This document shows, one piece after another, positions 1 to 20,954 of a stretch of 64,000 nucleotides of DNA (its first letter is position 1; every line of letters begins with the position of its first letter). Under the pieces are notes generated by a model. The model worked only from the letters and a program-made list of their open reading frames with translations. It did not search any database and was not told the origin of the DNA. This stretch comes from Cliona cf. orientalis. Taxonomy: Eukaryota; Porifera; Demospongiae; Clionaida; Clionaidae. The stretch lies in the NCBI GenBank assembly GCA_963930775.1, contig OZ005699.1, positions 3,555,501-3,619,500 of the forward strand. Reading direction: 5' to 3'. Both the position numbers and the translations under genes were made by a program.

Positions 1-233
1 AAACTTTAATAGTGGGCGGAATTTTAAATCAGTTAGTTATTTTAAGGTAAATTATGCATAACGTATCATGTATCTAGTGTGAAACAAAAACATCCTAAGT
101 CATTCCCTCGTTTATAAGCCATCCAATGAAATTGAGCAGCGGGCTGTCATGTCCTGGGCGGGGCTAACCGGTCACGTTTCGTTGGAGACGCACCTGGTAA
201 TGGTCGTTTATTTATCACTGTTTGGCGGACAAG
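1..233. other. 5' flank of the first gene
   Basis: This stretch holds no gene. It becomes more GC-rich towards the first start codon (around 145-200), which would suit a TATA-less promoter and 5' UTR, but no specific element can be named. Confidence 0.3.
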
Positions 234-3200
234 ATGGATTGCCAAGATCATGAAGATCCAGAGGAGATCCCGAAATCTAAACGTCCGCGACTTGAGAAAA
301 ACAAGGCGGAAGAGGAGGATGCGAAGCTTCCACAGTCTAATTTTTCGATCAACTTTCGCTCTTTCCTCTCCGAGCACAATGTTGTGGTGAAAGATTTTGA
401 GCAGCTGTTTCATCACGTCATGGACGTGCTGGGTGCTGAGAATATGACTGACTTGGAGGAGATACGACCTGATGATCTCTCTGAGGATAAAACGGGTATA
501 CGTTAATGTACACGTGATCTGTGAGTATAGCTAGCTAGCTATGTCACTACTAGCGCTGTGGCAGTATTAAATATTTTATCCGATTTCATTGGATACTGAG
601 TAGGATGGTCTCTGCTGCACTGTCATTCTGTAGGAGAGGCAATCAATTTCATATAGGTCAATTGATAGGTGCAGAGCTATTTTCTGAATACAATTAGGGC
701 ATTAGGGCAGTAATGAGTAGGCTACTCGTATGTGATAGCTAGTGCTAATAGGCTAGCTATATTATGGGAATTAGTACGTGTATTATGGCTGTATCACTAT
801 ACTACTACTATCTAGGTTTGAAGCCAATTCAACGGCGTAAATTTTTGCGGGCCATAGCAGAGAAAAAGAAACCACTTCCATCCACTGATGCTCAGACTAT
901 CGTAGAAGAGATACATGTAATTGACTCTGACAACGCGGCACTCCCTATGGACATCGAGGCAACCCCAGCTATTTCCAGTCCAGTGCACAGTAGCAATGAA
1001 TTCGAAGCTCCTGGACCAGATGATTCTCAGTGTTGTGACACCGCTTCAGGCTTATCTGTAAGGTATGTACACTGTCAAAACCTCTTTACATACCAAGCAG
1101 AAGAAAAGGTTCTCCATAATGTGCCGTCCACGACCACTTTGGGGGAGCTTGTTTGCTTAATTGCATCAGCTGAGGGGTTGACCAAGGACAAAACCCTTGA
1201 ATTATTCTTCAAAGAAGGATATCCCCTGGATCCGAATGAGATTACACTGAAAGGTGAGTATAAATATTCTTAACTATTTTGTATTACTGGGTTCTCTTGC
1301 TTTAGACTATGCATCATGTGTCATATTTGTCATATAATAATTATGGTACACGTACATGTACATGTCCATACATGTACTATTAGCCGACTTATCCAAGTGG
1401 AAAATCACCAGTGGTACTCTACTGTACACTTTTCTACGACAAACGCACCAGCCCAGTGTCAAAGAACTACCCAACATCATGACATTGTTTCCTTTGGGCA
1501 ACAGTGCAGCATCTCCTGCTGAAAACCCCTCCCATGAAGGTTAGTGGTCACCATAATTTATAGAGAGTAATTAGCAAGGGTGTGCCACATTAATTGAATT
1601 TGCTGTCACAATGTGGTTATAATATTTCACTTCAGAATCTACTATATATACAGACACAAAGCTATACCCAACACCATCAGCCAGTAGCTAGTGTAGATAT
1701 AGCCTGCTGTGGCTTTATACCGTATAGCGGGAAATTTTCGAGAGAAAACTTTCGCGGATCGGTAGGAAAGGAACATTTCGCGGAGAAAACTTTCGCGGAA
1801 TTTTAAAACTGGTCGCATAATGGGTGTGGTATGCCTAGAATTTCGCGGAGAAAACTTTCGCGGATGGCTGAAAAATCGCGAAATTTGTGAAAATTTTCTC
1901 CCTCGAAAGTTTCCCGCTATACAGTACTTCACTTGGACATCACAGGCAGCTGGTCATCCATTTCTCATCCACAGTACCTCACAACTGCATGCAATAGGAA
2001 CAAATCCTACCTATCTGTATTTGAAAATAAGAGCCTAGCAATCATGTACCAGTAGTCATATAATACAGGGCATTGCAACCACAAGGAGCTAGACACCTTT
2101 ATACCTGTAGTTTGGCCAGCTAGACCCTTGTCCTCTCCAGATCAAAAGTTATAATTATGATAATGAGTAGAGAGGGAGAGATGGCCCAGACTATCCACCG
2201 GGTACTATATTATTATAATATGCGCACTCGTGCAATACAGTGTTGCACACCCTTGCTAATGTATACTCTTAACTGTTTGATTCACCTACCAAAATTAATT
2301 ATTGTACTCCTCAATATGCATGTACATTAAATAGCAACTCCTGGACCAATGACAGAGTTTACAGTGCATAGTTTCCTCAATGGAACCTTTGTAGTGGATG
2401 TCAGTAAAAGTGGTGGTCTCAAGGAATTGCAGGATAAAATATTTCAGCATACAACAATTCCTTCCAGGCAATTCAGCCTTTACCTCACTTCGTAAGTTAA
2501 GTTATAGTGAACTATACATGATTGTATGTACATCTATATGTGTATCCTAAATATTATGCTATCATGATACAGCAATTGGAGATATCTGAGTGATGATATG
2601 GTGAAAGAAGCCTTGGAAAAAGGTTTGACAGAGATTCTCATGATCCCACGATCATTCTACTGGCTTCCTAGTGGTGTTGAGTATGGAAAGTGCACCTACG
2701 TCCCAGTCGTTGGACAAACAGACGTAGGGTTTGCTAAATTCTATTCAATTCTCTATTACATGGTAAGCTGTACTTACATGTAGAAGGTGGGGAGCATGCC
2801 CACTCCAAAATTGATTTCCCCTCCATTTATAAAGCATATGGTACACATGTACATGGATAATAATATACATGTACACTTGGAAATACATGTAATATGATTA
2901 TAGTAGATCCGAATCCCTCATTACATCCCTAGTAGCAATTTACTTTCTGAAACAGTCTACACTAAGACCTCCCGTTTAATGGAAAAATGGAAAAGATGTT
3001 TTGCTACGTATGATTATGCACGCGCACGTACGTACATGTATTATGCTGGTATACGCAATAATCTCGTATACATGTACGTCTGCATATCTATCCGTGTACC
3101 GCGCCCTATCCACTACTTAGTTGCGTTCTTGGTATCAATGTGAAACTCAGCTCTTCTTCTTTCCAATGGTACTTTAGATAAAACGATAGCTAACTCACAC

Positions 3201-6200
3201 TAGAAGATACAGTTGTACATACACATACATTATCTTTGCCCCCACATGCGTGGCATGCATGTCATTAACCCCGACAGCCACCATGCAAACTGCGTGTTGA
3301 CATTAAAATGTATTGTACGTATATGGACTTCTGGTGGTCTTAGTGTGACTGGAAACAAGCATATTTGCCCAGTAAGGGTATATCCAATCGTGAATTTTGG
3401 CACAAATATGGGTGAATATGGAAAATAGTTCTGTAAATACTTTAAAGTTCGTCATTAAATTTTGTTTTCAGTTTCAACTTATGCCACTTTATAGTATTAA
3501 TTTTGATGACTACGTAACATTGCATAACTTAAGTTTACATACTTAGTGACTTTTACCATGATATTCCATGTGACTAGGGATGTGGTGATCGTTTCATAAG
3601 CAATAAGCATATACCAGTCTTCCATCCAAGCAAAAGGTTTTATATGAAGGGAAGGTGTGCTATAGCTGGGCAGAGCTTTAAGGCCTAATTAAAAGCATTA
3701 TGTCATGATGTAACTAGTGATTGTTAATAAATTTAGATCTAGCATACAGACTCGCGTTGTGATAGATTACGCAGATACAGAAATATTGCCGCGTGCTCCT
3801 CGTGGACTCCAGAACGCCAGCGAAGGACGAAGCAAGGACTTAGCTACTCGTGGTGCTACTAGAGGACTGGTATCTATGTCTGCTTCTTGACCTACCCTCA
3901 CTCACTAAAGGTAAATCTCTTCGTGGTGTACTACCTTGCATGTGGTAGATCTAGCTAGATATAGACATCGCTACTCTGGCACAGCCGACTCTCACCCGTC
4001 CCCCTGATATAGACCTCTTATCTTTCGCCGCTAGCTAAAGATCTTCCAGCTCCAACCCTTGAGCCTTTCTTGGACCGACCACGTTCTACTACCGCGAACT
4101 ACAACCATTGATTAAATAGCGATTTCAATCTAATGAGTGCGGTTATATCATGTGTGACACTAATTTACTAAAATAGCCCTTATATCGTGGCACAATCCCT
4201 TTAAGAAATTTCCCTACCCACGTAGAATTATCATATCCTTCCCTCCCCCCCCCCCCCCTTTCAGCAGTAGACACTGTCTAGATTGTGGAGGGAGCTTATT
4301 TTCGAATATGCACACATGCATGTCAACTCACCTCAAATATAAAGCCCCTCCAGTAGAAGTCTTTGCTTATCATCTCTTCTCCGCCTACATAATGCTCATT
4401 TGGCCATAGTACGGAGTCTACTCTCGTTTTGAGCTTCAACATAACAGCAAAAAGAGGCACTACACTTCCGTGGTCAATTCTGCAATTCTAGTCAGACCGA
4501 CAGCTAAGGCCATTCAAGTAACTTTTTCCATGCTTTTACCATGATATAATATTATATTCTGTACAAGGATGTTACAAATGAAGAGACATACACATACCAT
4601 TGAGACTACAAACAATGGCACTTCTGTCAATCTCCAGGCGTTGATTTTGCTGATGGTTCAATTTTAACAAGGGTTTATAGATGAGGCAAAAATACCTGTG
4701 TAAGAATTTGTGGGTCAAAGAGGGGAGGGGATTTGTTTTTGAAGAGGGCTTATTTTTTTGGGATAATTGGTAATTCTCTTCTTACGCGATTTCTATTATT
4801 ATAGAAGCCATATATTATTTATGCAGGTAAAGAGTGACTCGTTTAAGAAGGACCAAATAGCTGGATATGTGCATAAAGCCTATGGCTGTCCTCCGATGAC
4901 TTATGCTCTGAAGCTTCTCTTTAGCAACCAAAGTTTACGACAATTTGGCTGCTGGGTATATATAGCTATAACCTCTTAACGTAATAATAGCAGTAATGCA
5001 TGCAACTGAGTTTGAGAAGAGGCATAATAATATTATAATATAATATTGTCACAATGCAATGTACATTACTCCCGTATGCATACAAGGTTACAGCTCTACT
5101 TGATAGTATGTGAATACTTAATGAATCAGTCTCTCTTGGAATGGTGATTACTTGTTTATTATGCATTTAGGTGGCCTTGATTGAAGGATTCTATCAGCTC
5201 TTTCGTGCTATCCTCAGTGTGTACTGTGATGGTAAGCCAGAAGTTCATTATTGCTGTAGATCCAGCCAAAAATACATCTGGGGCCACACTCACATTTTTT
5301 CCCCATCTATAATTATTGTATACATACAATTTACATATATCCTATCTGTAGGGTTGCCACATGCAAAGATATACATGACTGTACAATAGAAATCATTGAT
5401 GCTGTCTATACAATGATGTTACTATGCAATATTATTTTAGTTCCAGATGAGAAAGTGTTTGAGTTCAGTGACTACCTGTGGGGCTTCATCATTCAGCAAG
5501 CCAGCAAGGTATGTGTTCACAGTGTATAATCATAGTACATGTATGTGCATATTCTAACATAGCTGTCTGCATAGTCCAGGAATTTCATAGTGAATTCAAT
5601 TTAGCTGTTTGGCAGTCTGCCAACCGTCATATTTACACATGTATATGTATCAATAAGTATTTAATTATAGGTGCAATGTCTGCTTACTTATTGAACTGTT
5701 GTACAGTTACGCTTATGGACTATAGCTAGCATGGTCAACCATCTATACTACATGCAGGCAAATGTAGATGAACATTGGACTAATGTTGATCTGATTTGTC
5801 CTATAACTGGGGTAAAGATAATCCAGCCCGTCCGTCTCCCGCTCTGCGATGATGTTTTTGACAGAATTGGCGTCCTCAAGAAGCTAAAGGGTATGAATGA
5901 TATTGAATACCGAAAGATTGCATGGGTATGTACATATACACAGCAGCATTGTCTACCATAAGGTATATGTTTAAAACAAAACTCCTCCTGCATATAATTT
6001 TGCTGTATACATGTACTGACCTTTATCTGTACATCACAGCGAATGAAGCAGTGCCCGGATGTAGCGTAAAGAATTTGAAAGAAGATGATATGCATAAAGA
6101 TGAAGCATTTGAGAGACTACTCATGTGCAATATCTTCCACAGCTGTATGTGTGGCTTGCCAATCTTGAAGCAGACCTCCCTTTCAGCTACAACAGGGTAA

Positions 6201-9200
6201 GCCTAATTAATTGTATGATAGAGGTGTTGTTATAGCTGTGGCGAAACCTCTCTGACTTGGTATTGGCTAAATCATTTAAAATTTATGATCTGAATGCTTG
6301 CATCATAGGACCTGGTGCAAAATAAATATTATGTTTAATTAATGTTGGCAATGTCACTAAATTCCTAAAATGTAAAATCTTGCCAAAATTTTCCACTATA
6401 TGCGTAGTATAATGCCAGAAGCATATGAGCCGCCTATAGTATAAGGAGTATGTAATTTGCATGCCATCAAGATACAAATCCATGCACATGCAGTACTTAA
6501 TGTGGTTATAATAATATTATGTGTATGTGTGTGGACTAGGGCATTTCCAATGGACACACAATGTCATGCAGTTTCCAAATGTAAAGTACATGTATTCCGC
6601 ATGAATTTGTATTTCGATGGCACCCAGGCATATACGGAATTTGCACACTCCTTTGGCGCCTTCAGTGGCTGATAATCATTAGTATTAACTGGCTACCCCA
6701 TTATACAGCTGCATCAGAAAATTAACCTTTCCTGTGGATGTCACATGGAAGATGTTCAGTGAATGCAATACCCAGCTATGTGTGAAACTCGATAATCTTG
6801 ATTCAAATAAACCGTGTTTAGTCTACTACAAGAAAAATGGTGACTTGCATGAAGTTTATAATCTGTGTGACTATTACGTTTAATAATTACTGTGTACATG
6901 TCTTTAGGTTGTATGGTAGTGAAAATTGGAGTGCAAAAGTCTGACAGTTTGAATCCTACTGTGTACAATCCTTTGTACAATCCCGCTAAAAAGGAGGGGT
7001 CTTCATTGTCCGTCCCAAAATCAATGCTAATTGATGGATCTAGTGGGTACATAGAACCATTAAATTTTATTATTAAAGGCATTGTGCCACAATATAAAGG
7101 CTATTTTTTAGTAAATTAGTGTCACACATGATATAATCACGCCCATTAGATTGAAATCTGCAGCCACTTTTTAATCAACAATTGTAGTTTACGGTAGCAG
7201 AAGGCGATTGGTCCAAGAAAGGCTCAAGGTTGGAGTTGGAAGGTTTTCAGCTAGGGACGGAAGGTAAGAGGTCTATCAGAAGGACGGGTGAGAGTCGGCC
7301 GTGCCAGAGTAGCAATGTCTATATCTAGCTAGATCTACCACATGTATCACGAGTAGATATACCTTTAGTGAGTGAGAGTAGGTCAAGAAGCAGACAAAGA
7401 TACCAGTCCTCTAGCAGTGCCAGGAGTAGCTAAGTCCTTGCCTTGTCCTTGGATGGCATTCTGGAGTCCACAAGGATCGCACAACAATATTTTTGTACGT
7501 GCACGGTTTATTACAATGCGAGTCCGTATACTAGATCTAAAAATAGTAACAATCACCGCTTATATCGTTACACAATGCCTTTAAGTAAAGCTGTTGATAC
7601 TAGCATGGAGGTGTACCATGTGCATATCATCACTGTAGAGAGTGTAAGAAGGTCAATATTAACAGCTACATGAATGAAAGAGCCAAAGTAGAAGCTAAAC
7701 TTCCGTCCACTATCAGGTATAATAATTATACTGCATTGCTACCTACTCCTAACTCCTAACTCGCTCATATCGTAGAATTCAGCGATTACACCCCCCTCCC
7801 CCCCGTGCATGCTAGCATTGGGCAAAAGCGGGAGGGGGCTTATATGCGGGATCCTAACATTTCCGTGTGATGACCATTACTGACCATCGAATGCCACGTG
7901 GGTGCGCAATCTCTGCACTTTTGTTTGGTTCGAGAAAAATGACAAAGGCATAATAATATGACACAAATAGCTAGTTTGTTAGTTGATGCTACTGTTTTTT
8001 ACTCTTATGGTCTATAAATATCTACATCTTACAGTCAGAGGGGTGGGGCTTATACACGAGACAAAATTACCTATGCAGTAACTTGAGCTAAAAATGTAAG
8101 GGGGGCTCGTGCGCGAGGGGAGGGGGCGTAATCGCGGGATTCTATGATAATAACATCAAGAGTATATACTCTTGATAACATTTATTATGATTGTGTAACC
8201 TTTTTCTGTAGCCATGTTGTACCCAGCCACACAGAATCCCAGGCCCAAGCTCCATTGGAGGCTATTGTTGTATGTGAAAAAAATAATCTACTCTCCCTTT
8301 GCCATGCTATGAGTATCAAATATAATGTATGTGCCTATATCTAGGTCACACTTGATGCAAGCACGTCAATGGCTGAGCATATCTTTCAAGAGTAAGTAGA
8401 TGTAACACTATACAGTATATGTAATAATATGTATTGTGTATTATTATTATAATATTATGTAGGAAGGGAGATGATTACAGCCGTTTTCAAGCAGCCAAGG
8501 ATCTTTTCGACGCTTTTCTGAATCGGACCCAGGCTTATGGACTGCACCATCTAGTGGGACTGATCACTTTCAAGTCACATGTGACAGTCAACCTGGCACT
8601 TACCGAAAAACTGGTATCTTTCACAGTAAGTCTAGAATTAACTAGAGTTCTTTGGAGCACATACCCCGCACGCTGCAGCATCAATGTGAGATCAGAGAGA
8701 GCTTGAACTCCATGCATGCCACCTGCAGTCCCTGTTGACGACCTTTACCTACATATTTTACCAGGTTGTGCGCATGAGCAAAAGCACATGGTGGGTAGTA
8801 TTGATAGGTGTGGCCAACAAAATCCAGTATTTGCGATGCTCATGGACCTTGCCAAACGATTTGAAGCATAACAAACCCAGTTTTTTGACGATATCGACGG
8901 ATATACTGTACTTACAAGTTGTTCAGACGCCAGATCTGGCAATTTTTGTGCTGACGACGGACGACAGACGACAGATAAGATGGATTACTTTACCCCTTGC
9001 GCAGGTGCGCGGGGTAAATATTGATAACAATATACATGTAATGTAGCACACATGAGATAAGTTCTACCCTATACTCTACTACTACTACTAGGGTGCCATC
9101 AACTCTGTCTCACCAGGAGGTAGGACTGCTCTTTACGATGCAATTGCCAAAGCGTGTGAGCTCCTAAGACCACTGGCAACCAGCTTTCCTTCATGCAAGA

Positions 9201-12200
9201 GGTAAAAGTTCCACATCGGTTTGTGACTAGCAACATGTACAGTGTTCTCCCCAGGTTTAAGGCATGATAGTAGGGCATAGCTTGGGTGGAGACTGTGGCC
9301 ACATCAAAGCTTATGGATTAGCACTATTCCCACATCAAAGGGAATTCTGAACTGAAGGCTTGTTGGGCCAATATGCCTTAGGTATATATGCTGGGGAGTA
9401 CACTGCATACAATGTCGTGTAGTATTGAACAGTACTAACTTATTCCAGACACCCTAGCGACAGCTTTAAGTATCGATGCTTATTAAAGGAGGTGTCCTCA
9501 TGCATTTTGGTAATAGTTTGTACACTTAATTCTTTGTGTAGATGGGGTCATGCATAATATCCTGATTAAAATAGATGTCCTTATTGCAGGGATATCCTTA
9601 GGGAGAGTGTAGCTAGTTATGGTATTCAGACTGAGTGTAAGTATTGTTCTGTAATACAACTAATTGGCAGGAGGATACTCTGCTTGACAGATGGGGAAGA
9701 TACTCGATCGGCGAACAAGCCTGATAATCTACTGGACGTCTTAAAGGTGGACATACAAATAATAATAGTTATCATTACTGATAATTATGTCTTCCATAAA
9801 TCTGATAGAGAGATGAAATAGTTATGGATACTGTATTGATCACAGGATCTCAGGGCAACCCTACACAGAAAGCTTTGTCATTTGCTACGGGTAAAACCAT
9901 GAACACTTTAGGGAGATCATAGCTTTAAATGAGGAAAATTACTTTTGAATTGCTTTTTTAGGAGGTTACTGTTTCTTCCCAAAATCCATGGCTGAGGCAA
10001 CCAAGATATTTGAGGTTGAAACTCTCGTCAGTCTCAGCGAAAGAACTCGCTCAGGATCACTTAGTGTACTCTCTCTTTCTCTCTCCCCCACTTTTCCTCA
10101 CTCCTTCTCCCCTTCTTTCTCCATTTATTCTCTATAAAGTGTTCATTATATTTTATTCTGCAGGGCGATCTAAGTAGCTACAGATCTCTGCCTTTCACTT
10201 CGACCAATCCCTACGGAAACAAAGCTCTCATGTCGAATTTTTCTCAGGGCCTAGAGAAGGCTTGCTTCACTACAACAGCAAGGTAAACATGAAGTTGATG
10301 ATAGCCTCATCCCCAGCTTTCAATACTACACGCAGCATGTAAACTATACAAAAATTAGGAGGGTCTGGGGATAGTTTGCAACATTGAAAAGCTTGGGACA
10401 TGACTATACATTTAACTATACTGTGACATGTATTTTTTTATTTCCAGGATGGTGGAGAAGTCTTTGCTCTTGGGAGTTCCATCAATGACTTCAGGTGCAG
10501 CTTCCAATCGGAACAAGAGAATTCTCAGAGAACTTAGACAGTATCAGAACAATCCCCATCCATCTGTTAATGTCTTCCCAAATGAAGACAAGTGAGCAAA
10601 CTTTATACATAATAGTATTATTATAGCTAATAACAAATAATGATTGTTGCAGTTTGGCTATATGGAAGCTGGTACTCACTGGACCTGATAATACACCTTA
10701 TGAAAAAGGTATTATTTTCTAAGCTGATTTAGAAATGTGGTGTTGACAGATAGGGCTGATTCTATACAACTGTACTGCTATAGGTGTCTTCCTCAAATTT
10801 CCCGACCAGTATCCTTCCAAGCCACCCGAGATTCGCTTTCACACACCTGTAAGAAAATAATTATGTCTTGCCTTGTGTGCATTTAGTTAAGTATGTGACT
10901 TTTATCTCATAGATTTATCACTGTAACATCAACAGTAGTGGTCGTATCTGTCACAGCAGCTTGGATAAAGGTTATGTCCCAACGGAGACCGTCCGAGGGC
11001 TGGTGGACAACATTTACGGCTTGCTGATGGATCCTGAGCCAGCTGATCCTCTTGATAGGTATAAATGATAATAATAAATACTGTGTGCACTGGAATGCTC
11101 CTTCCAATGTTATAATAATATTATTCTAATGAATACAGGGTTGGGTGGGTGGTCACATTAACGTTTTGACATCTTTCTCTTCCCACATTAAATTTGCTGC
11201 ACTGCTTCTTAAGAGCACTCATGGGATATCTAGAATTTTTATCCTTTTGGGAGGCAGGGAGGGGATGGGGGAGAGCGAGGCACTTTTTAGTAGTCACTTA
11301 TTCTCAGCCATGCATGCATGGTGCAATCTAGCATAGGTGCTCCTAAAGGGATTACAAATACCAGACCTTCACAAAAAAGGGCCCAAAGGCAGGGCACCTT
11401 ATATTGGACCTAGACTGGTGGGTGTACCACTGTTACTGTTGGACGCAAAAGAGCGCCCAGATAAATACTTCACTATTAGAATGATAGGCGCAGCTACCTT
11501 GTTTATGCACGGTTGCCAATCAAGAGTGAGGGCGGCCAGCTATTGGGCCAATACTTCAGTGCCATAACTCAAATGGCTGATTTATGAGGACTATACTTCA
11601 AATAATCGATATAATACATGGATCAAAGTAATAGCCTGCCAAACGCCCACATATAACTAGGCTAAGCGTTTCAGCACCAAAAAAGTGATCGTGCAAGATT
11701 GGCAATCGTAACCATGCCTATACTTAATAGTGATAGCACGTGCATATCCAGGACAGGTACTAATGAACACGTATTTGACTATACGTTAGCTCAGGAACTT
11801 GAGTTCAAAGTGGGAGGGGGGGTGGGCCGATATTCCATAGTGGGCCCTCTTTCACAAGGGTATGGTACATATCTTTATGCAAATTATCATTTCTAGTGTG
11901 CTAGCTCTTGAGCTACGTCAAAACAAGGTCAGATATGAGAGAACGGCAAAAGAAATGACTCTCAAGTATGCCTCAAGTGATCGCCAAGAACTTAAACAGG
12001 TATATAATATAATATGTCAAGCTCTGGTTTTGAAATCTTTCAGAGAATAATTATTTCATTGTTAGTTTGGTGCATTAGGAGGGAGGAAATCTGACATGTT
12101 TCAGTGTTTACTGTTATTCCTATGTAGCTACACTGCATAGAAATTTGTAGGGCCAGGGGGAAGGTCAATATTGGTTGGGAAATCACTGTGTTTCTGAAGT

Positions 12201-12499
12201 ACACATTATGTGGTATTTTACAATCCGTGATTTTTTTTGGTTTTTAGACTGTCATTGATGTTGACTCTGAAGTTCCTAAAGCCTATCTGTGTCCCCTGAC
12301 AAAGAAAATGTTCACTGATCCTGTAATTACTCCTTACGGGCACACATATGAGAGGGAGGCACTAATGGAATACATGAGACAAAACGGTCCTAAAGATCCA
12401 GTAGCACAACAGTCTCTTGATCCTTCCAGACTGACTCCCAACACCGCACTCAAGTCCATCATTCAGAACTTCAAACAAGTGAGCAAAGAACTCAGCTGA
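234..12499 (+). CDS. SAM/Ubl/SP-RING/vWA/E2/U-box multidomain ubiquitin-pathway protein (about 28 exons)
   Basis: The hand-built model gives a protein of about 1240 residues. Exons: 234-495, 816-1253, 1384-1539, 2335-2491, 2573-2762, 4827-4955, 5171-5231, 5441-5508, 5758-5925, 6040-6196, 6709-6839, 6908-7046, 7604-7716, 8212-8269, 8345-8391, 8463-8625, 9092-9201, 9590-9634, 9671-9746, 9809-9890, 9962-10065, 10164-10282, 10448-10591, 10653-10708, 10794-10848, 10913-11058, 11897-11999, 12248-12499. Domains in order (approximate residues): SAM-like helices (35-100), ubiquitin-like folds (170-250, 286-340), SP-RING-like CPIT...PVR...W (495-600), vWA with a complete MIDAS (DASTS, GGRT, TDGED; 735-915), E2 (1010-1130) with its cysteine at 10949-10951, and a C-terminal U-box (CPLTKKMFTDPVI; 1168-1240). 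The role is inferred as transfer of ubiquitin or a related modifier by E2 and E3 modules on one chain. Phases agree except at the SP-RING exon, which needs one extra base, and at the 7046/7604 junction, so a two-gene alternative is possible. The start codon is the first ATG. An upstream in-frame TTG at 222 is not needed. Confidence 0.7.
1718..1926. mobile_element. TA-flanked MITE, copy 1 (TIR starts CCGTATAGCGGGAAA)
   Basis: This 209-base element lies in the third intron of the first gene. It begins TACCGTATAGCGGGAAATT and ends with a near-perfect inverse, TTTCCCGCTATACAGTA. Internally, the block GCGGAGAAAACTTTCGCGGA recurs in both halves. The TA at both ends fits a Tc1/mariner-type target duplication. 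No coding capacity is seen. A second copy lies at 63067-63277. Confidence 0.8.
3689..4204 (-). mobile_element. TTAA-flanked piggyBac-like MITE, copy A
   Basis: This element of about 510 bases lies in the 2763-4826 intron of the first gene. It is bounded by TTAA on both sides, with termini related to AAGGCATTGTG and its inverse CACAATCCCTT. It aligns throughout, in inverted orientation, with copy B at 7073-7584. TTAA duplication and this terminus layout are typical of piggyBac-type elements. It has no transposase and is therefore non-autonomous. Confidence 0.75.
7073..7584 (+). mobile_element. TTAA-flanked piggyBac-like MITE, copy B
   Basis: This element starts TTAAAGGCATTGTGCCAC and ends CACAATGCCTTTAA. 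It shares its whole body with copy A in opposite orientation, for example TCCAAGAAAGGCTCAAGG and TAGATCTAGCTAGATATAG-type stretches. It fills nearly all of an intron, ending about 20 bases before the acceptor at 7602-7603. Non-coding. Confidence 0.8.
7766..8150. mobile_element. MITE with C-rich terminal inverted repeats
   Basis: The left end (about 7766-7804, ATCGTAGAATTCAGCGATTA followed by C-runs) is the inverse of the right end (about 8117-8150, G-runs followed by GTAATCGCGGGATTCTATGAT). The roughly 385-base unit sits in the intron between 7716 and 8212. The internal phrase GGGGCTTATA recurs. No coding sequence is present. Confidence 0.6.
8940..9020. repeat. GCGC hairpin plus GAC-rich tract (unit 1)
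   Basis: A GACGACGGACGACAGACGAC tract is followed by a hairpin, TACCCCTTGCGCAGG/TGCGCGGGGTA. Read on the minus strand, it has the same layout as two other places in the window (12980-13060 and 62955-63020). It lies in an intron of the first gene. Confidence 0.4.
11059..11896 (+). other. long intron of the first gene, nothing recognised
   Basis: This 838-base intron separates the E2 exons from the last two exons. It contains a G-rich patch (about 11245-11280) and short open frames with no recognisable homology. No inverted-repeat element was identified. Confidence 0.5.
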
Positions 12500-12919
12500 A
12501 TCAAAGCTCAATTCCTGTGCAGTTATTCACCATCAATATAGTACAGTGATTTCATACATACTATATCCAAACAGTGCACTTTATTAATTTTGGTAATAAT
12601 TGTTACTCCATCAATTGCTGCAGTACCGTTTTACTTATCAATGCATGCATATTTCATGATCAATGTCCACTATGATAATATTATGATTGTTCAAGCAGGA
12701 GTGCTTGCTTGCCCCCCAGCAGTACCCAATTTGGCTATCTTCCATGCATCACTATTTGTAGGTTCTGAAGTAAACATAATAATTATATTACTTGTATCCC
12801 CCTACTAGTATGTACCATGTAATGGGGAAACTTTATTCCAATCTTAGTCTAGAACCTTATAGCAACTCGATCAAGAGCTTTTAATATGCATACAATACTG
12901 GTTGAATCATTCTACTTTT

Positions 12920-12925
12920 AATAAA
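12920..12925 (+). promoter_or_regulatory. possible polyadenylation signal AATAAA
   Basis: A canonical AATAAA lies about 420 bases after the stop codon of the first gene. It is the first exact match noticed downstream, so it may end that transcript. Position alone supports it. Confidence 0.35.
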
Positions 12926-12979
12926 CATGTGAATGCATCAAGTAAAAGGAAACTTTAGGCATAATATACCTGGCATGGT

Positions 12980-13060
12980 TAACCCTCACCGCAAAGCGTA
13001 GGCGGAGGGTTACTGCTGTTGTTTGGCGATTTTTGTCCGTCTGTCTGTCCGTCGCAACCC
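12980..13060 (+). repeat. GCGC-type hairpin plus GTCYGTC tract (unit 2)
   Basis: An imperfect hairpin, AACCCTCACCGC/GCGGAGGGTT, is followed by GTCCGTCTGTCTGTCCGTC. The layout matches units at 62955-63020 and, inverted, at 8940-9020. Confidence 0.4.
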
Positions 13061-14470
13061 TCCTTTGCGAAATGGTAAGGGTCGTCATAGAGAAAGTACG
13101 CATTCTAGGTATACGTAGCATAAAGGAAGAGTGGTCATGTTAGGTCCTGCCCAGTGGTGTAGTAGTGTGCAGCTGTTGCAACTTGCCAGTCCGTGTTTAC
13201 ATGGCACCTACCTCAACTACATGACTGATTATCATTCTGTGCTTTGCTGGTCAGTTGTCAATGCAGTGACAGTGTAAACAGGCAGTGGGCCACCTCTCAA
13301 GTGCATAATTCAATTGAAGTATGTCACAGAGGCTTTCAGTTTATATTATAGTGGCAGAGCCAGGTGCCTTCCCCCAACTCTTAGATCACTGACTCAAAGG
13401 AAAACAGTTAGTTCCAGAACCCTGTTTAGGTGCAGGGTATGTACTAGTTTAGTAGTACCACAACCCTGTTCAGGTGCAGGGTATGTAGTTCAATACTCCT
13501 GGCATTGAATAGTATACACAGTGAGCCATGCTATACATCTCCAGCTATATTATATGCATGCATGTAGCAGTGAGGGTTCTGCACTCTCCTGTGCATTCAT
13601 TATTGACCAGCTGTGAGAAAAGGGACTGTTTGGGATTGTTTTGTTTGTACATATAGTAGCTATGTATATGTAGCATGTAATGTACTCACAACAATTTGCA
13701 GAAAGCATGCAAGTTGGATATTGAGAGAATAAACAGAAATTGTCCTTTAACAATAACTGAAGATTGAAACTGTGCTTTAAGTTTTCTTTTTATTTGATAC
13801 AGTCACATGTTTCAAGTATATACACAAAATATTTGCCACGGAGCTCGTGGATGTCTCCAGGTAATGGGACTTGAAAATCTTGGGTCTCTTATGACAGGAA
13901 ATGTTGGGGTTATCATGTCACGTACACATCTGTTAACAGAAGCCATGCATGCAAACATTGATTGTGTGTGCATGTATATTATTATGGGTGTTGCTCGAAA
14001 CATTTTGCTTATAATTATTATCAACATCAACATCAACAATGATTATGGTAATGTAATTACTTCATAAGATAAGAGTGTAGTGTCTAGTCCGCTAATATTA
14101 ATAATACAGTGTGAGATGAAAAATCCCACAATCATCAGTAATGTGTGATTTTATTGATAACTTTCAGTTTCAAAATTATCATTACTAACTGTGATGGGCA
14201 TTGAGACAATTGACCATTACCTTTGGGACCATTTGTAGAGTGTGGCTTCTTGTATAATATTATTATTATGATATGGAGCTCGAGTAATGTTCTGTAGTTA
14301 GTAGTGCAAGTAATCAGCTTATAATATTATCATACAAGACTAAGTACACCCAGGAGTACTATACATTGATAGAAAGCAAGTTGGACATTGCATAAACAAT
14401 ACTACCATCTTCTCCAGATGGTCCCTTTTCTCATAGCAAGGTCACAGTTTACCAGAATCAGTTTGCTGCT

Positions 14471-17400
14471 ATGAAAAGTGCTCTGGTTTCCTTTCTTACT
14501 GTGGTGGCTGCAGTTGGTGTAATGAAGTGTACCAATACTAGTAGTTTCACAACATGTGTGAGCACTGAATTCGGCTCAGATAATCAGTCCACTTGTTTGG
14601 ATGGAGCTGGATGTTGCGCAAGTCTAAACTACTTGATCACTGAACTAAGCAGCTGTTCGTATGCACCAGCTACTCTAACTAACAAGGTGGAAATTCGTGT
14701 TGAATCTGATCTTGAACTAAATGGTACGCTATTCATCACGAATTTCTGTAATGTCTCCAGAGGATTTGAAATCATTGGTTCAGACATGTACCAGTATCCT
14801 ACTATCAAATGTCGTGCATTTGGTATGGGTCTTTATTTTGGTGATATTCAAAATTTACACATTGCTCGTCTAGAACTCTCTAAGTGTGGCTTCAGGCAAT
14901 ACAGTAACTATGGCAATGGTTCAGATTCAGTCAATTTTGAGCTTCATGCTGCCTTATATTTGGTTAACTGTAGCAATGTAGCAATTGAATATGTGACCAT
15001 CAGCAACAGTCAAGGTACAGGAGCGATTTTGCTAAATATTCATGGAGACGTAACTATTATCAACTCTACATTTGAGAAAAATGAGCCAGCTTTAGTTGGT
15101 GAGTCCTCCGTAGCTAATGGTGGGGGGCTCTATATTCAGTTAGGTAATCACACAGTGAATCAGAGCGAATGCCAGTTCACGGGGAAGTACATTATACAAA
15201 ACTGTTTTTTCATTAGAAATAATCACATTAAATTTTCACAACTTTGGCTGATATCTAGCCCTGATGCTTCATTAGAGCATTTGGGGAAAGGTGGTGGGCT
15301 TTTTATCAACATTAATGACAATAACAAACACCATCAATTCAAAATCTCGAATTGCACTTTTGACGAAAATTCTGCTATAAGTGGGGGAGGGATGTTTGTG
15401 CAGTTTTGGGATTCGCCACAAAACAACACTGTCATTATTGAAAATTCACACTTTCTCAAAAACAAATGCCAATATGCTGGTGGCGGTGCAGGTGCAAGCT
15501 ATGCATTTTATAAGGATACTGAAAATGATATTAGCAACGCTGCTTACAATAACATCACATTTATGAACTGTTTATTTGAAGAAAACTTTTCTCTAAAAAG
15601 TGGTGGAGGAATGCATCTGTTCTCAACTCAAGCTAATAGTTTATCCATAATCACAAATGCCATCATAATCCATAACTGTACACTAAGGAGGAACAAGGCA
15701 TACATAGGGTCAGCATTGGCCTTAGCTCCTGAGACGCATCGCAAAGGTCTGCTTCCAAAGCCAATTTTATCATGGTGCACTTTCTCGTCGAACTTCATAA
15801 CTAATGAGACACTAGTGGAAAGCAATGCTTTCAATGCATCCCTAACTGGCCTTGCAATGATTTTTATTAGTGATTTTCAGGTTAAAATCCGAGGAGATAC
15901 CCACATTTTCAACAATAGTGGCACAGCTCTCTGGCTGGCCTCAGCAGAAATGGAAATTGTTAGTGGAACTTCACTAAATTTTACCGGAAATAGTGGTACT
16001 TATGGAGGTGCTCTTGGATTGTTTGGAGAGTCTGTGTTGCATATTCACGATAAAACCAGGCTCTACTTCATAAGTAATACAGCTAAGTTAAGAGGGGGAG
16101 CAATAAGTGTAGAGTCAACCAATTTTTACATGTTTTCTTACAATTATTGCTTCATTCAATACAAAGGGAGCTCAGGCAAGATTAACAGGGACATGATATT
16201 CTACTTTAAAGGTAATGAAGCATTATCCGGTAACGGAGACATTCTTTTCTCTGCCACTGTTTATTCCTGCATCCAAGACTTAATCAAAGACTCACCACTG
16301 CAAATTTTCGAAAACATTGGAGCAGTTACGGGTCCACAGGCCGTTCTGACCCATATGAAGGATACTGTACGTACACTTCCTAGCAATTTCTCTCTAGAAT
16401 TACCCAATTCCGAAATAGGCAGCCTGGAAGTACAACCAGGTATCGATTTTGAAGTAAATTTATCAGCTACTGATGAATATTCACAACATACAAGGGTGAT
16501 GTATCAAATCCACATACTACAAGATACAAAGAAGGCTGATGCTATTTCGATGGATCCTGCCTATGCATTTTTGTCCAACAACACCATACTGATAAATGGA
16601 ATAAAAGCTATGACTGGAACAAGGAAACTTCTTGCTCTAGAAAGTGGAAGAGCATCTCTACGTATGAGGATTCTTTTGGTAAACTGCCCCCCTGGTTTTG
16701 TGAATAATGACTCTGGTACCTGCGAGTGTGGTGCTGCATACTTCAATGGAATATCATACTGTGTTTCTGATCGTGCGCACATTGTTCCAGGCTACTGGGC
16801 TGGCAGATGTGCTAACAATCAGTTCTGCACTGCTTTCTGTCCTGCAGGATTCTGTAACTACTATGGCGAATATCATACATCATCCAACTTGCTGCTTTTA
16901 CCATCTGATATTAAGGACCTCGATTATTCTGTGTGTGGCCCAACTCGTACTGGAATTTTGTGCGGGAAATGTAGCCTTGGCCACTCAACGCACTACCACT
17001 CTTATTTTTATGGCTGTAAATCAAATAAGCTTTGTAAACTGGGCATTCTGTTCTTTCTGATATCTGAACTGCTCCCTTTAACGGTCATCTACACAATTGT
17101 TATGGTATTCAACATCAGCTTCACTTCTGGAGAGATCAGTGGCTTTATCTTCTTTGCTCAGATTGCAGACTCCCTCAGTATCAGCGCCAGTGATAGCATA
17201 ACGTTTCCACCCGTCATTTGGTACTTCACTCAGGCTCACCAGTTCATCTATAGGATGTTCAATTTTGATTTCTTCAGCATAGAGGCACTATCCTTCTGTC
17301 TTTGGGAAGGTGCAACTGCACTGGATGCAATGATAATGAAGTATGTCACCATTCTTTATGCAATGGGGTTGATCATTATGACTATTCTTGTGATGAAGTC

Positions 17401-18283
17401 AACCAGGTTTAAAAGATTTTGCACATGCTTTCGACCTCGTGCACTAAGATCTGCGGCTATCCATGGTCTAACGACATTCATAATCATCTGTTTTTCTCAG
17501 TGTGCCAGAGTATCTTTCCAGATCATCTCTCCCGCTTATCTCTATGGTCGTGGACCAATGAAGATTGATACAGTAGTCCAAAGAAGTGGTGAGCTGAAAC
17601 CGTTCGATGAAACACATCGCAAGTATGCAATACCAGCTCTATTTTTCTTCTTTATCTTGGTGATTTTGCCCCTCCTGTGGCTCTTACTTTATCCACTTCT
17701 TTTCAAATTACTTGAAAGATTCAAGCTGAGTGAATCGAAGTTAGCGGCATTTCTTTCTAAGTTATTCCCTATGGAACTCTTAGACTCATTTCAAAGCTGT
17801 TTCAAACCCAACCGTCGCTACTTTGCTGGGCTCTACTTTTTCTATCGTATTATGACTTTGTTAGTGTACACTGCTACCAGCACGCTAACCCAGTTTTACA
17901 CACTCCTCACACTTGGAATGATACTGGTCATCACTGTGCACTCAATTGCTCAACCTTACAAGGTTCTCTGGCATAACATCCTGGATGCTTTTATCTTTGC
18001 CAATATCATGGCCGTGAATGCTCTCACACTGTACAGCTTCCATATCCTTGGAGTAGGCAACGACAACTCATCGCGTAGTATTAATATTGCACTCAGTGTG
18101 CAGTTACTTTTAATGTATTTTCCTCTTGTCTATATTGTGGTGCTGCTTGCTCGAAAGATCTATGTTGAAGTAAAGAGACGGTATCCTGCCATGGAATGCA
18201 CATGCAATGCATTAGATTTTGAAGATAGCACTTCTCTTCCAAGTCTCCGTGATTCAGTTAGTTACCATGAGTTTGAAGAGTGA
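14471..18283 (+). CDS. beta-helix ectodomain, multi-pass membrane protein (subfamily 1)
   Basis: This is a single open frame of 1270 residues. A signal peptide (about 1-20) precedes a long N-glycosylation-rich ectodomain with right-handed beta-helix repeats. Units of the Pmp type are visible, such as SGGGM, YGGALGL and RGGAIS following F..N motifs (about 130-560). A membrane-proximal neck carries cysteine clusters, CPPGF (about 738) and TGILCGKC (about 828). From about 855 to 1226 there are about nine or ten hydrophobic segments, including FAGLYFFYR and HSIAQPY. The roughly 45-residue tail is acidic. The closest relative in this window is the 34176 gene, which shares SFQSCFK.N. and GLYF.YR. 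The function is unknown; a surface receptor or channel-like role is inference. It is probably not a GPCR, because there are too many hydrophobic segments. No intron is needed. Confidence 0.85.
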   Translation: MKSALVSFLTVVAAVGVMKCTNTSSFTTCVSTEFGSDNQSTCLDGAGCCASLNYLITELSSCSYAPATLTNKVEIRVESDLELNGTLFITNFCNVSRGFEIIGSDMYQYPTIKCRAFGMGLYFGDIQNLHIARLELSKCGFRQYSNYGNGSDSVNFELHAALYLVNCSNVAIEYVTISNSQGTGAILLNIHGDVTIINSTFEKNEPALVGESSVANGGGLYIQLGNHTVNQSECQFTGKYIIQNCFFIRNNHIKFSQLWLISSPDASLEHLGKGGGLFININDNNKHHQFKISNCTFDENSAISGGGMFVQFWDSPQNNTVIIENSHFLKNKCQYAGGGAGASYAFYKDTENDISNAAYNNITFMNCLFEENFSLKSGGGMHLFSTQANSLSIITNAIIIHNCTLRRNKAYIGSALALAPETHRKGLLPKPILSWCTFSSNFITNETLVESNAFNASLTGLAMIFISDFQVKIRGDTHIFNNSGTALWLASAEMEIVSGTSLNFTGNSGTYGGALGLFGESVLHIHDKTRLYFISNTAKLRGGAISVESTNFYMFSYNYCFIQYKGSSGKINRDMIFYFKGNEALSGNGDILFSATVYSCIQDLIKDSPLQIFENIGAVTGPQAVLTHMKDTVRTLPSNFSLELPNSEIGSLEVQPGIDFEVNLSATDEYSQHTRVMYQIHILQDTKKADAISMDPAYAFLSNNTILINGIKAMTGTRKLLALESGRASLRMRILLVNCPPGFVNNDSGTCECGAAYFNGISYCVSDRAHIVPGYWAGRCANNQFCTAFCPAGFCNYYGEYHTSSNLLLLPSDIKDLDYSVCGPTRTGILCGKCSLGHSTHYHSYFYGCKSNKLCKLGILFFLISELLPLTVIYTIVMVFNISFTSGEISGFIFFAQIADSLSISASDSITFPPVIWYFTQAHQFIYRMFNFDFFSIEALSFCLWEGATALDAMIMKYVTILYAMGLIIMTILVMKSTRFKRFCTCFRPRALRSAAIHGLTTFIIICFSQCARVSFQIISPAYLYGRGPMKIDTVVQRSGELKPFDETHRKYAIPALFFFFILVILPLLWLLLYPLLFKLLERFKLSESKLAAFLSKLFPMELLDSFQSCFKPNRRYFAGLYFFYRIMTLLVYTATSTLTQFYTLLTLGMILVITVHSIAQPYKVLWHNILDAFIFANIMAVNALTLYSFHILGVGNDNSSRSINIALSVQLLLMYFPLVYIVVLLARKIYVEVKRRYPAMECTCNALDFEDSTSLPSLRDSVSYHEFEE

Positions 18284-18520
18284 ATACAACAATGTCATTT
18301 ACTTTGTGATGACTATTTAGCTTTAGACTGCATGAGACTGCTAGCTACAATAATTATTACAACACACGCGTACATACATACTGATGATCAATACAATGTC
18401 ATAATAATAGTATTATTATAGTATTTTGTAATATCTATGGATTCAAGACAAAAATTAATTAGTATGCAGCATTTTGTATGGTCAAATTTTTTGCATGATC
18501 AAGTGGTATTTCCACAAGAT

Positions 18521-18526
18521 AATAAA
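18521..18526 (+). promoter_or_regulatory. polyadenylation signal AATAAA
   Basis: A canonical AATAAA lies about 240 bases downstream of the stop at 18283, in AT-rich sequence. Confidence 0.45.
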
Positions 18527-18756
18527 AATACTGGTGTACAATTTCAAGCACATGCTCTGGATAACGCTAACTTAATTATAGGCCTGTGGGACTAGCTATA
18601 CTTCTTAATACTAAGTTTAGGTATCATAGGCTACAATTATGCTAATTGACACCCCAATTAACCCAGACATGCTATGCAAACATCAAGGTCGAAGGTTAAT
18701 TAGGATTTAATTGCTTAGAGTTTGAAGTTTAACCATGCCAATATCAATGATGGTAT

Positions 18757-18763
18757 TATAAAT
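18757..18763 (+). promoter_or_regulatory. TATA box of the transglutaminase gene
   Basis: TATAAAT stands about 47 bases before the ATG at 18810. That leaves room for a very short leader if transcription starts some 30 bases downstream. Confidence 0.5.
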
Positions 18764-18809
18764 ACTGGCAGCTAGGCATTCCACTCTTGGTTGGCTCCTT
18801 GCAGCAGAC

Positions 18810-20954
18810 ATGGCAAGAACACTTTTCATCTCTGTTTTGTTGATATTCCTCTCTTTGGATGCATTGGCAAAGGATGAATGGAATGAAGCTAATTTGCACC
18901 TCTCCTACAACATGATGAAACATGTGAACCTTGAAATTCACAGTACCAAGCTATTTCGACATCAATCTGGTCTTCATGTGCGCCATGGCTTGGGTTTGGA
19001 CGTGCTATTGAAGTACAGTGCTAAGCAGCAGTATTGTGATAAACTACAACCATTCATGTTCAAATTGATGCAAAATGACGTCTCAGTACACAAGTGGACC
19101 CAGAAACCAAGAGTGCAGCAGCAATATAGCTCTCAGAATCAGGATGAGATACTTGAATTCAATCTCCATGTGAGCAGAAGCATTCCAATTGGCAAATATA
19201 CACTCAACGTTGAAGATCCGTGCTCTGAGCCTACCGGCAAAGAACTGCAGCTATGTATTGTAAATGTGATGTTCAATCCTTGTCCTGAAGCAATTGAAGT
19301 AGGCCATTCACTGCAAAGGGTTCGAAAACAAGAACCAAGCAATGACTTAAAAAGTGAGTATGTTAACAATAACTTTGGATTCATATGGGTTGGGGGACGA
19401 GTTGCTATACCCTGGAATTATGGAGTGAACAGTCAGGTTGTCATCGATGCCAAAAATGCCCTGACTCAGAAGATGTCTCAGAGAGTGCGATCAGATCCAA
19501 TCCTTTACTCTCGTACTCTAACAGAGCTTATTGGCAATGATGTTCTATACGGCCGATGGGATGGTTCCTACAGTGATGGTGTTGAACCTACTCAGTGGGT
19601 AGGAAGTGAAGATATCCTGAAGCGTTGGCTTCGAACGAAAAGGCCTGTACGGTATGCCCAGTGCTGGGTGTTTGCAGCTATTCTCACCACTATTCTACGT
19701 GCATCGGGAATTCCCGCTCGTACTATAACAAACTACGGCAGCCATCATGACCGAGGACTCACAGATGATGGAACAGCTGTTTTGAGGCAGTATGATAACA
19801 TAGTGCAGCCAGATGAAACCACATGGAATTTTCACGTCTGGAGTGAAGCGTGGATAGCACGACCTGATCTAGGCCAGCCAGCTGGGTGGAATGCAGTCGA
19901 TGCCACTCCACAGGAGCCTTCTCCACTAGCGCCAGGTCAGCCATACCGTGCAGGACCTGCGTATGTACCATTCATTCGAGCAGATATGAGAAATATGGAT
20001 TATGACACATATTTCATTTTGGCTGAAGTGAATGCTGTTAAGTATTGCCCTATGACTGGAAAACCTCTTCCACAATCTGTAGGACTTGCTGTTTTAACAA
20101 AGAAACCAGGAACAGGACAAAATGTATACGACTACAACAATGCCGAAAACATTACCACTAACTACAAGATATCTTCATCTTCTACCTCTAGGAAAAGTTT
20201 ACGAGCATTGAATAGTATGAATTCAACCCTCCCATCTCCCTTCGCAGGATGTGAATTTGATGATGGAATGCACCTAGAGAGTACTCCCATTCATCCGAAG
20301 GTGGGTGAAAACTTCATACTCACAGTAACCGAGGGAAATGTATCTACTGCAGATGAAGATATTGTTATTCAAATGGAACTGATGAACTACATGGGGGAGT
20401 CCCTCGGAGTCATCGCAACATTCACAGGTATCAAGGAGCTCAATGTCACTGAGATGGACTACCTGCCCTATCTTGGTAACTCTAGTGTATTCAGATTCTC
20501 TGTAGGTACATACAATGAATCAGATAGCCTCACAATCTATGATACCCTACTCATCACGCTCGAGTATGAATCACTTACTGTAGAAGCCACAAGGGACACT
20601 AACTCAACCACTATCACTCTAATGGTAACGTATACCAATCCACTCTCAGCTCCTATGACTGGGGTCATCATGAGTATATCCGGTCCGGATAACACATATA
20701 TGAGAGAGGAACGACCTGATATTCCAGCTAATGCACATTTTACAACCTTCGTGGAGGTTCAGTGCTATGAAGACGATGATGGAGCTGCCATGATACCAGT
20801 ATCCCTTGACTCAGATGTGACTCACAGTGTCTATGGCATTGGCTGGAGTAGCTGCAGGGATACTTTATCAAATGGTGGCATAGTCATGCTCTCTATTCCC
20901 TCGGCAATAGAGTTGATACTCCTATCTCTACTTTCCCTCTATTTCTCCATTTAA
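18810..20954 (+). CDS. secreted transglutaminase, probably GPI-anchored
   Basis: This is a single open frame of 714 residues. Transglutaminases form isopeptide bonds between glutamine and lysine side chains of proteins, using calcium. The catalytic triad is complete: Cys285 in YAQCWVFA, His342 in FHVWSEAW and Asp364 in NAVDATPQE. Their spacing (57 and 22) is close to that of animal tissue transglutaminases. An N-terminal beta-sandwich precedes the core, and two C-terminal beta domains follow (about 490-690). Unlike most animal relatives, it begins with a signal peptide (about 1-20, ending ALA) and ends in a hydrophobic stretch of about 20 residues after SNGG. This is the layout of a GPI-anchored protein. 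It sits in the same orientation between two beta-helix membrane protein genes. A role in extracellular cross-linking is inferred. Confidence 0.92.
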   Translation: MARTLFISVLLIFLSLDALAKDEWNEANLHLSYNMMKHVNLEIHSTKLFRHQSGLHVRHGLGLDVLLKYSAKQQYCDKLQPFMFKLMQNDVSVHKWTQKPRVQQQYSSQNQDEILEFNLHVSRSIPIGKYTLNVEDPCSEPTGKELQLCIVNVMFNPCPEAIEVGHSLQRVRKQEPSNDLKSEYVNNNFGFIWVGGRVAIPWNYGVNSQVVIDAKNALTQKMSQRVRSDPILYSRTLTELIGNDVLYGRWDGSYSDGVEPTQWVGSEDILKRWLRTKRPVRYAQCWVFAAILTTILRASGIPARTITNYGSHHDRGLTDDGTAVLRQYDNIVQPDETTWNFHVWSEAWIARPDLGQPAGWNAVDATPQEPSPLAPGQPYRAGPAYVPFIRADMRNMDYDTYFILAEVNAVKYCPMTGKPLPQSVGLAVLTKKPGTGQNVYDYNNAENITTNYKISSSSTSRKSLRALNSMNSTLPSPFAGCEFDDGMHLESTPIHPKVGENFILTVTEGNVSTADEDIVIQMELMNYMGESLGVIATFTGIKELNVTEMDYLPYLGNSSVFRFSVGTYNESDSLTIYDTLLITLEYESLTVEATRDTNSTTITLMVTYTNPLSAPMTGVIMSISGPDNTYMREERPDIPANAHFTTFVEVQCYEDDDGAAMIPVSLDSDVTHSVYGIGWSSCRDTLSNGGIVMLSIPSAIELILLSLLSLYFSI

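Follow-up and report, generated by a model that had tools for sequence, protein, structure and literature searches.

A sponge gene model placing vWA, E2 and U-box domains in one predicted protein

In the genome of the sponge Cliona cf. orientalis, we find a gene model which combines a vWA domain, a ubiquitin-conjugating E2 (UBC) domain and a U-box E3 domain in one predicted protein, an unusual arrangement that, as far as a gene model can tell, is well supported. The model lies in a stretch of 64,000 nucleotides of contig OZ005699.1, which was analysed as a whole and is referred to as the window. We consider it probable that this animal gene, present as a single copy, codes for a self-contained E2-E3 consisting of the vWA domain, a UBE2D/E-like E2, a spacer of about 22 residues and the U-box. 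Its 27 exons extend from 234 to 12499 on the plus strand. They were joined by hand from window positions 1–12000 and 12001–20000 with their phases checked by script, and they yield an open frame of 1,215 amino acids free of internal stops. All 26 introns possess GT-AG borders, the start ATG at 234 is preceded by an in-frame TAA at 198-200, and the terminal stop codon occupies 12497-12499. Searching the assembled protein against Pfam returned 12 families at E<=1, with UQ_con (6.5e-34), U-box (1.3e-18), VWA_2 (3.5e-11) and VWA (4.3e-7) surpassing their cut-offs. The earlier note had read the locus as a single chain made up of SAM, Ubl, SP-RING, vWA, E2 and U-box modules; the last three of these stand, whereas the SAM and SP-RING assignments could not be upheld and the joint formed by exons 11-13 is weak. 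Judged by its sequence matches, the front half of the protein thus appears less certain than the vWA–E2–U-box half.

The three C-terminal domains are solid. The vWA domain (exons 14-20, 8212 to 10065, plus strand) harbours a complete MIDAS motif, which we take to consist of DASTS, the threonine of GGRTALYD and the aspartate of LTDGED; a sequence search of the PDB with this domain gave no match at E<=0.01. The E2 domain follows in exons 22-26 (10448 to 11999, plus strand), the UQ_con match covering residues 985-1118 (10518-11957) with 117 bits at a cut-off of 27. Within the best 60 of its 327 PDB matches, the top ones comprise the unnamed E2 of entry 4gpr and enzymes labelled UBE2E2, E2 8, UBE2E1 and UBE2D1. 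The catalytic cysteine, which resides in exon 25 within the sequence GRIC, is aligned with that of these enzymes, and HCN replaces HPN as it does in UBE2E2. In all three alignments shown, the domain is short by three residues in the conserved strand preceding the FP motif, a gap which adjoins the exon 23/24 joint. Exon 27 (12248 to 12499, plus strand) encodes the CHIP/PUB-like U-box and the stop codon. Here, the match comprises residues 1141-1209 (12272-12478) and reaches 67.3 bits at a cut-off of 21.4, the nearest solved structures in the PDB being those of LubX, PUB12 and CHIP. The E2 and U-box matches are separated by about 22 residues (1118 to 1141); their linkage within one gene is that of the gene model, in which exons 25 and 26 are separated by an intron of 838 nt. 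UBE2D- and UBE2E-type E2s are common partners of U-box ligases, and the PDB entries 2oxq and 7xed each contain an E2 chain alongside a U-box chain. The earlier note was correct in stating that the MIDAS residues and the E2 cysteine are present. Its further claim that the parts look functional applies to the vWA domain, to the U-box and, for the most part, to the E2, but it does not hold for the SP-RING, which is discussed below.

Genome searches with either half of the protein revealed no second copy of the gene. All 12 matches obtained with the N-terminal half belong to the window locus. The C-terminal half produced 21 matches, 13 of them at the window locus (79–100% identity) and eight elsewhere (31–54% identity), the latter falling into the E2 or the U-box part. 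A genome-wide U-box search gave eight matches which we grouped into six places; neither the five places other than the present gene nor a U-box-like place on contig C16 has one of the 50 listed UQ_con matches within 100 kb. Likewise, no relatives were detected in the collections viral_contigs (C-terminal half) and genome_contigs (both halves), neither of which was built for animals. Matches to the Wnt profile (PF00110) are grouped at three places of the genome; as Wnt is not known to occur outside animals, they mark the genome as that of an animal. Further along the plus strand, the window contains an intronless open frame of 1,270 amino acids (14471-18283), the last part of which appears hydrophobic by eye, and from 18810 an open frame whose start resembles a signal peptide by eye and which matches Transglut_N at E=0.0011, under the cut-off.

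In the N-terminal half, exon 1 and the start of exon 2 (234 to 868, plus strand) form an open frame with a basic cluster, SKRPRLEK, which by eye is NLS-like. The SAM domain formerly assigned to this segment finds no profile support: no Pfam family was matched at E<=10, in a search whose HMMER filters drop most matches above about 0.1, and the 340-residue N-terminal piece retrieved only four PDB matches, whose names (DpHF18 and dTor, for example) are of the design type. We have therefore abandoned this assignment. Two Ubl-like segments follow, both weak. The first, a beta-grasp candidate in exons 2-3 (1037 to 1475, plus strand), matches OTU1_UBXL at 0.042 and Rad60-SLD at 0.045; the second, in exons 4-5 (2335 to 2675, plus strand), matches UN_NPL4 at 0.0025 and ubiquitin at 0.019. 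All of these values are under the cut-offs, as are those of OTU1_UBXL (0.0014) and UN_NPL4 (0.06) in the search with the whole protein. Among ten shuffled Ubl pieces, none matched a Ubl family and two matched unrelated families, the best at 0.036. Both of these stem from the five shuffles of the first segment, which consequently, on its piece, stands no higher than chance since one of its shuffles attained a value as good as its own, albeit with an unrelated family; the five shuffles of the second segment matched no family at all at E<=1. The NPL4 and OTU1 families are p97 partners, and the likeness of the two segments to them may be regarded as a lead, but only a lead, towards p97. Exons 6-8 (4827 to 5508, plus strand) are open in phase and contain no recognised domain; a piece spanning the late part of exon 5 through exon 8 gave no Pfam match at E<=10.

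Exons 9-10 (5758 to 6196, plus strand) resemble the SP-RING of NSE2/MMS21 in what looks, from its sequence, like a degenerate form. On this piece the zf-Nse profile reaches 2.3e-5 and 24.6 bits, which is below its cut-off of 27. The whole protein does pass zf-Nse with 43.7 bits, but the best stretch in this case is the U-box. The PDB chain of NSE2, 2yu4, aligns with exons 9-10 at E=0.016. Taking the Cys-His-Cys-Cys positions of its site to be the zinc ligands, two of the four are matched in exons 9-10, while the histidine and one cysteine are unmatched. In a genome-wide zf-Nse search, which gave three matches, the best one (54.6 bits) is located on contig C7 and none falls on exons 9-10. The CP and GC halves of the NSE2-type motif are situated in adjacent frames, and reading through the frame boundary raises the Pfam score from 24.6 to 25.3 bits and the PDB score from 18.7 to 21.3 bits (E=0.002). 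This split, along with the higher read-through match, hints at, but does not prove, a frame error, be it one of the assembly or of the gene itself. The SP-RING of the earlier note, remaining below the cut-off even upon read-through, is accordingly not retained as such.

Such a frame error would be expected if the gene were decaying, i.e. if it had once encoded a full protein and now carried frame errors in the SP-RING and perhaps in exons 11-13, as well as a shortened E2 strand, leaving a partial or inactive product; indels in the assembly would mimic this situation. The separated CP and GC halves with the gain upon read-through, the three-residue gap of the E2 and the weakness of exons 11-13 would all fit such decay. 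Nevertheless, we consider it improbable, as the Pfam score drops to 22.9 bits when an X is placed at the read-through joint, a GT-AG splice leaves exons 9-10 open, and exons 14-27 are open throughout, with the MIDAS residues, the E2 cysteine and the U-box retained.

The connection between the two halves is made by exons 11 to 13, all of which are uncertain. Exon 11 (6709 to 6839, plus strand), if its frame is read onward, runs into a stop at 6881-6883. Exon 12 (6908 to 7042, plus strand) comprises 135 nt and is therefore skippable in frame. Exon 13, with the Cys/His-rich segment VPCAYHHCRECKK (7611 to 7716, plus strand), joins exon 12 in phase and matches no Pfam zinc finger. When splice sites were scored with exons 9–13 excluded from training, the lowest of the 26 donor scores were those of exon 12 (2.1), exon 20 (2.8) and exon 11 (3.0), and the lowest acceptor score of the model was that of exon 10 (-1.6). 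For codon usage, the weights were derived from other genes in the window, and 142 intronic open stretches served as a null (median -0.102, 90% point 0.038). As a group, exons 11–13 score -0.026, compared to 0.096 for exons 1–8, 0.060 for exons 9–10 and 0.132 for exons 14–27. Individually, exons 11, 12 and 13 are equalled or exceeded by 27, 29 and 52 of the 142 intronic stretches, respectively. Since exons 6, 9, 14 and 24 also fall within the intron range (34, 20, 24 and 78 of 142), this test is weak for short exons.

The earlier note had relied on exon phases to place all modules in one protein. Phase alone turned out to be poor evidence for a single chain, because an in-phase bridge of three exons is likewise possible in 47% of 200 sequences obtained by dinucleotide shuffling of 6197-8211, although the real sequence offers 22 such chains against a shuffle mean of 7.9. 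Two attempts to give exons 11-13 a firmer shape were discarded. A Parkin-IBR-like cysteine spacing seen by eye had suggested that exons 11 and 13 together form an IBR-like zinc finger, but this is unsupported; its single PDB match (E=1.3) vanished once exon 11 was joined straight to exon 13. A scored splice search meant to select exons 9–13 gave results which shifted with the intron penalty and placed some exons inside the transposable element described below; extra exons arose in calibration stretches too.

The weak splice and codon scores of exons 11-13, the continuation of the exon 11 frame into the stop at 6881-6883 and the ease with which in-phase bridges arise by chance would all be accounted for by two adjacent genes on the same strand, a Ubl/SP-RING-like gene ending at 6881-6883 and a vWA-E2-U-box gene starting near exon 13 or 14. 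ATTAAA motifs at 7059 and 7072 could serve the first of these. AATAAA, however, is absent between 6883 and 7604, the next occurrences being at 11073, inside intron 25, and at 12920, past the final stop. Moreover, the frame of exon 13 has a stop immediately upstream of the acceptor at 7604, and its first methionine is the 23rd residue.

A further argument arises from intron 12, which contains a MITE (7073 to 7584, plus strand) flanked by TTAA at either end. A second copy is found in inverted orientation in intron 5 (3689-4204). Within the genome, this family is represented by 40 scored matches out of 219 candidates, including that at 7073-7584, to which the other 39 show 84-87% identity. All 12 other copies examined, 11 from elsewhere and that of intron 5, possess TTAA at both ends, as is characteristic of piggyBac-type insertions. 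Once the element is removed, intron 12 shrinks to 60 nt, the shortest of the other introns having 61 nt, and the acceptor at 7604 follows the possible stop at 6881-6883 at a distance of only 212 nt. As most of the gap from 6883 to 7604 is MITE, two separate genes become less likely, and we regard this arrangement as rather doubtful. The MITE favours one gene, without implying how the locus is spliced at present.

We therefore lean towards the two halves being joined in a single long chain. The most far-reaching form of this reading is that the 1,215 residues, with two Ubl folds, an SP-RING short of ligands, the MIDAS-bearing vWA domain, the E2 and the U-box, constitute a conjugation line lacking only the E1, and that the gene descends from a vWA–U-box gene thought to have been lost before animals arose or early in their evolution but kept in this animal lineage. 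While possible, this reading falls somewhat short of being probable in our view.

If the gene is expressed and its product active, an E1 would load ubiquitin onto the E2 cysteine, whereupon a U-box, either from the same chain or from a dimer partner, would bind the E2 and accelerate the transfer of its ubiquitin to a lysine. The distance of about 22 residues between both domains makes docking within the chain or within a dimer conceivable. The vWA domain may use its metal site to select either a substrate or an acidic ligand. Both Ubl-like segments and the remnant of an SP-RING-like domain, which rather probably belong to the same chain, would act as docking parts and not as a second catalytic ligase. 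The gene may indicate that the vWA–U-box type, reported as not present in animals (PMC3087547), survived in one animal lineage and had an E2 added to it. If active, it would represent a natural E2–U-box fusion in which the activation of an E2 by a U-box could be studied within one chain and with fixed pairing.

Several known proteins share individual traits with this predicted architecture. As in the present gene, the E2 of UBE2O and of BIRC6/BRUCE is embedded in a larger multi-domain protein, and UBE2O is said to be a hybrid E2/E3. BIRC6/BRUCE possesses a BIR domain, which has no counterpart among the 12 Pfam families found at E<=1 in the whole protein, whereas the E3 part of the window gene is a separate U-box. 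The plant RGLG ligases consist of a vWA domain and a RING; they, too, join a vWA domain to an E3 module, yet with a RING in place of the U-box, and are not known to contain an E2. BRUCE and PARPs bearing a UBCc domain are described as multi-domain E2s (PMC2964712); such PARPs, those of fungal clade 6A among them, are treated in PMC2964712 and PMC4245714. These PARPs resemble the window gene in that an E2 is fused to other domains, but the fusion involves a PARP domain instead of vWA and U-box; a link to PARPs was considered and dropped, no PARP match being found at the locus. Elsewhere in the genome, 17 of 57 PARP catalytic-domain matches are concentrated on one contig (G000:C10:5116823-6676561), 12 of the 17 in open frames of 650-1,491 amino acids.

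According to PMC4327156, the accessory domains of the E1 and E2 families are exclusive and show little interconnection; against this background, the link between E2 and U-box is notable. VWA does not occur in the accessible part of a survey of the snail ubiquitin system (PMC6548493), and no protein with vWA, E2 and U-box is named in the titles and abstract openings of the open-access literature searched. Among the CrPUB U-box proteins of Chlamydomonas, VWA is one of 13 extra domains (PMC4378952, in part). These algal proteins thus combine VWA with a U-box as does the animal gene described here, but no E2 appears among the 13 domains listed in the available text. The nearest described kind, likened to our gene by domain description alone, are the vWA–U-box proteins of the Mb_UBOXa type from choanoflagellates and protists (Monosiga, Naegleria, Trimastix and Spironucleus), whose gene was described in 2010 as ancient and 'not present in animals' (PMC3087547, seen in excerpt). 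Common to both is the presence of vWA and U-box in one protein, here by gene model. In contrast to the Mb_UBOXa type, for which that excerpt names no E2, Ubl or SP-RING, the window gene carries an E2 between its vWA domain and its U-box and resides in an animal genome.
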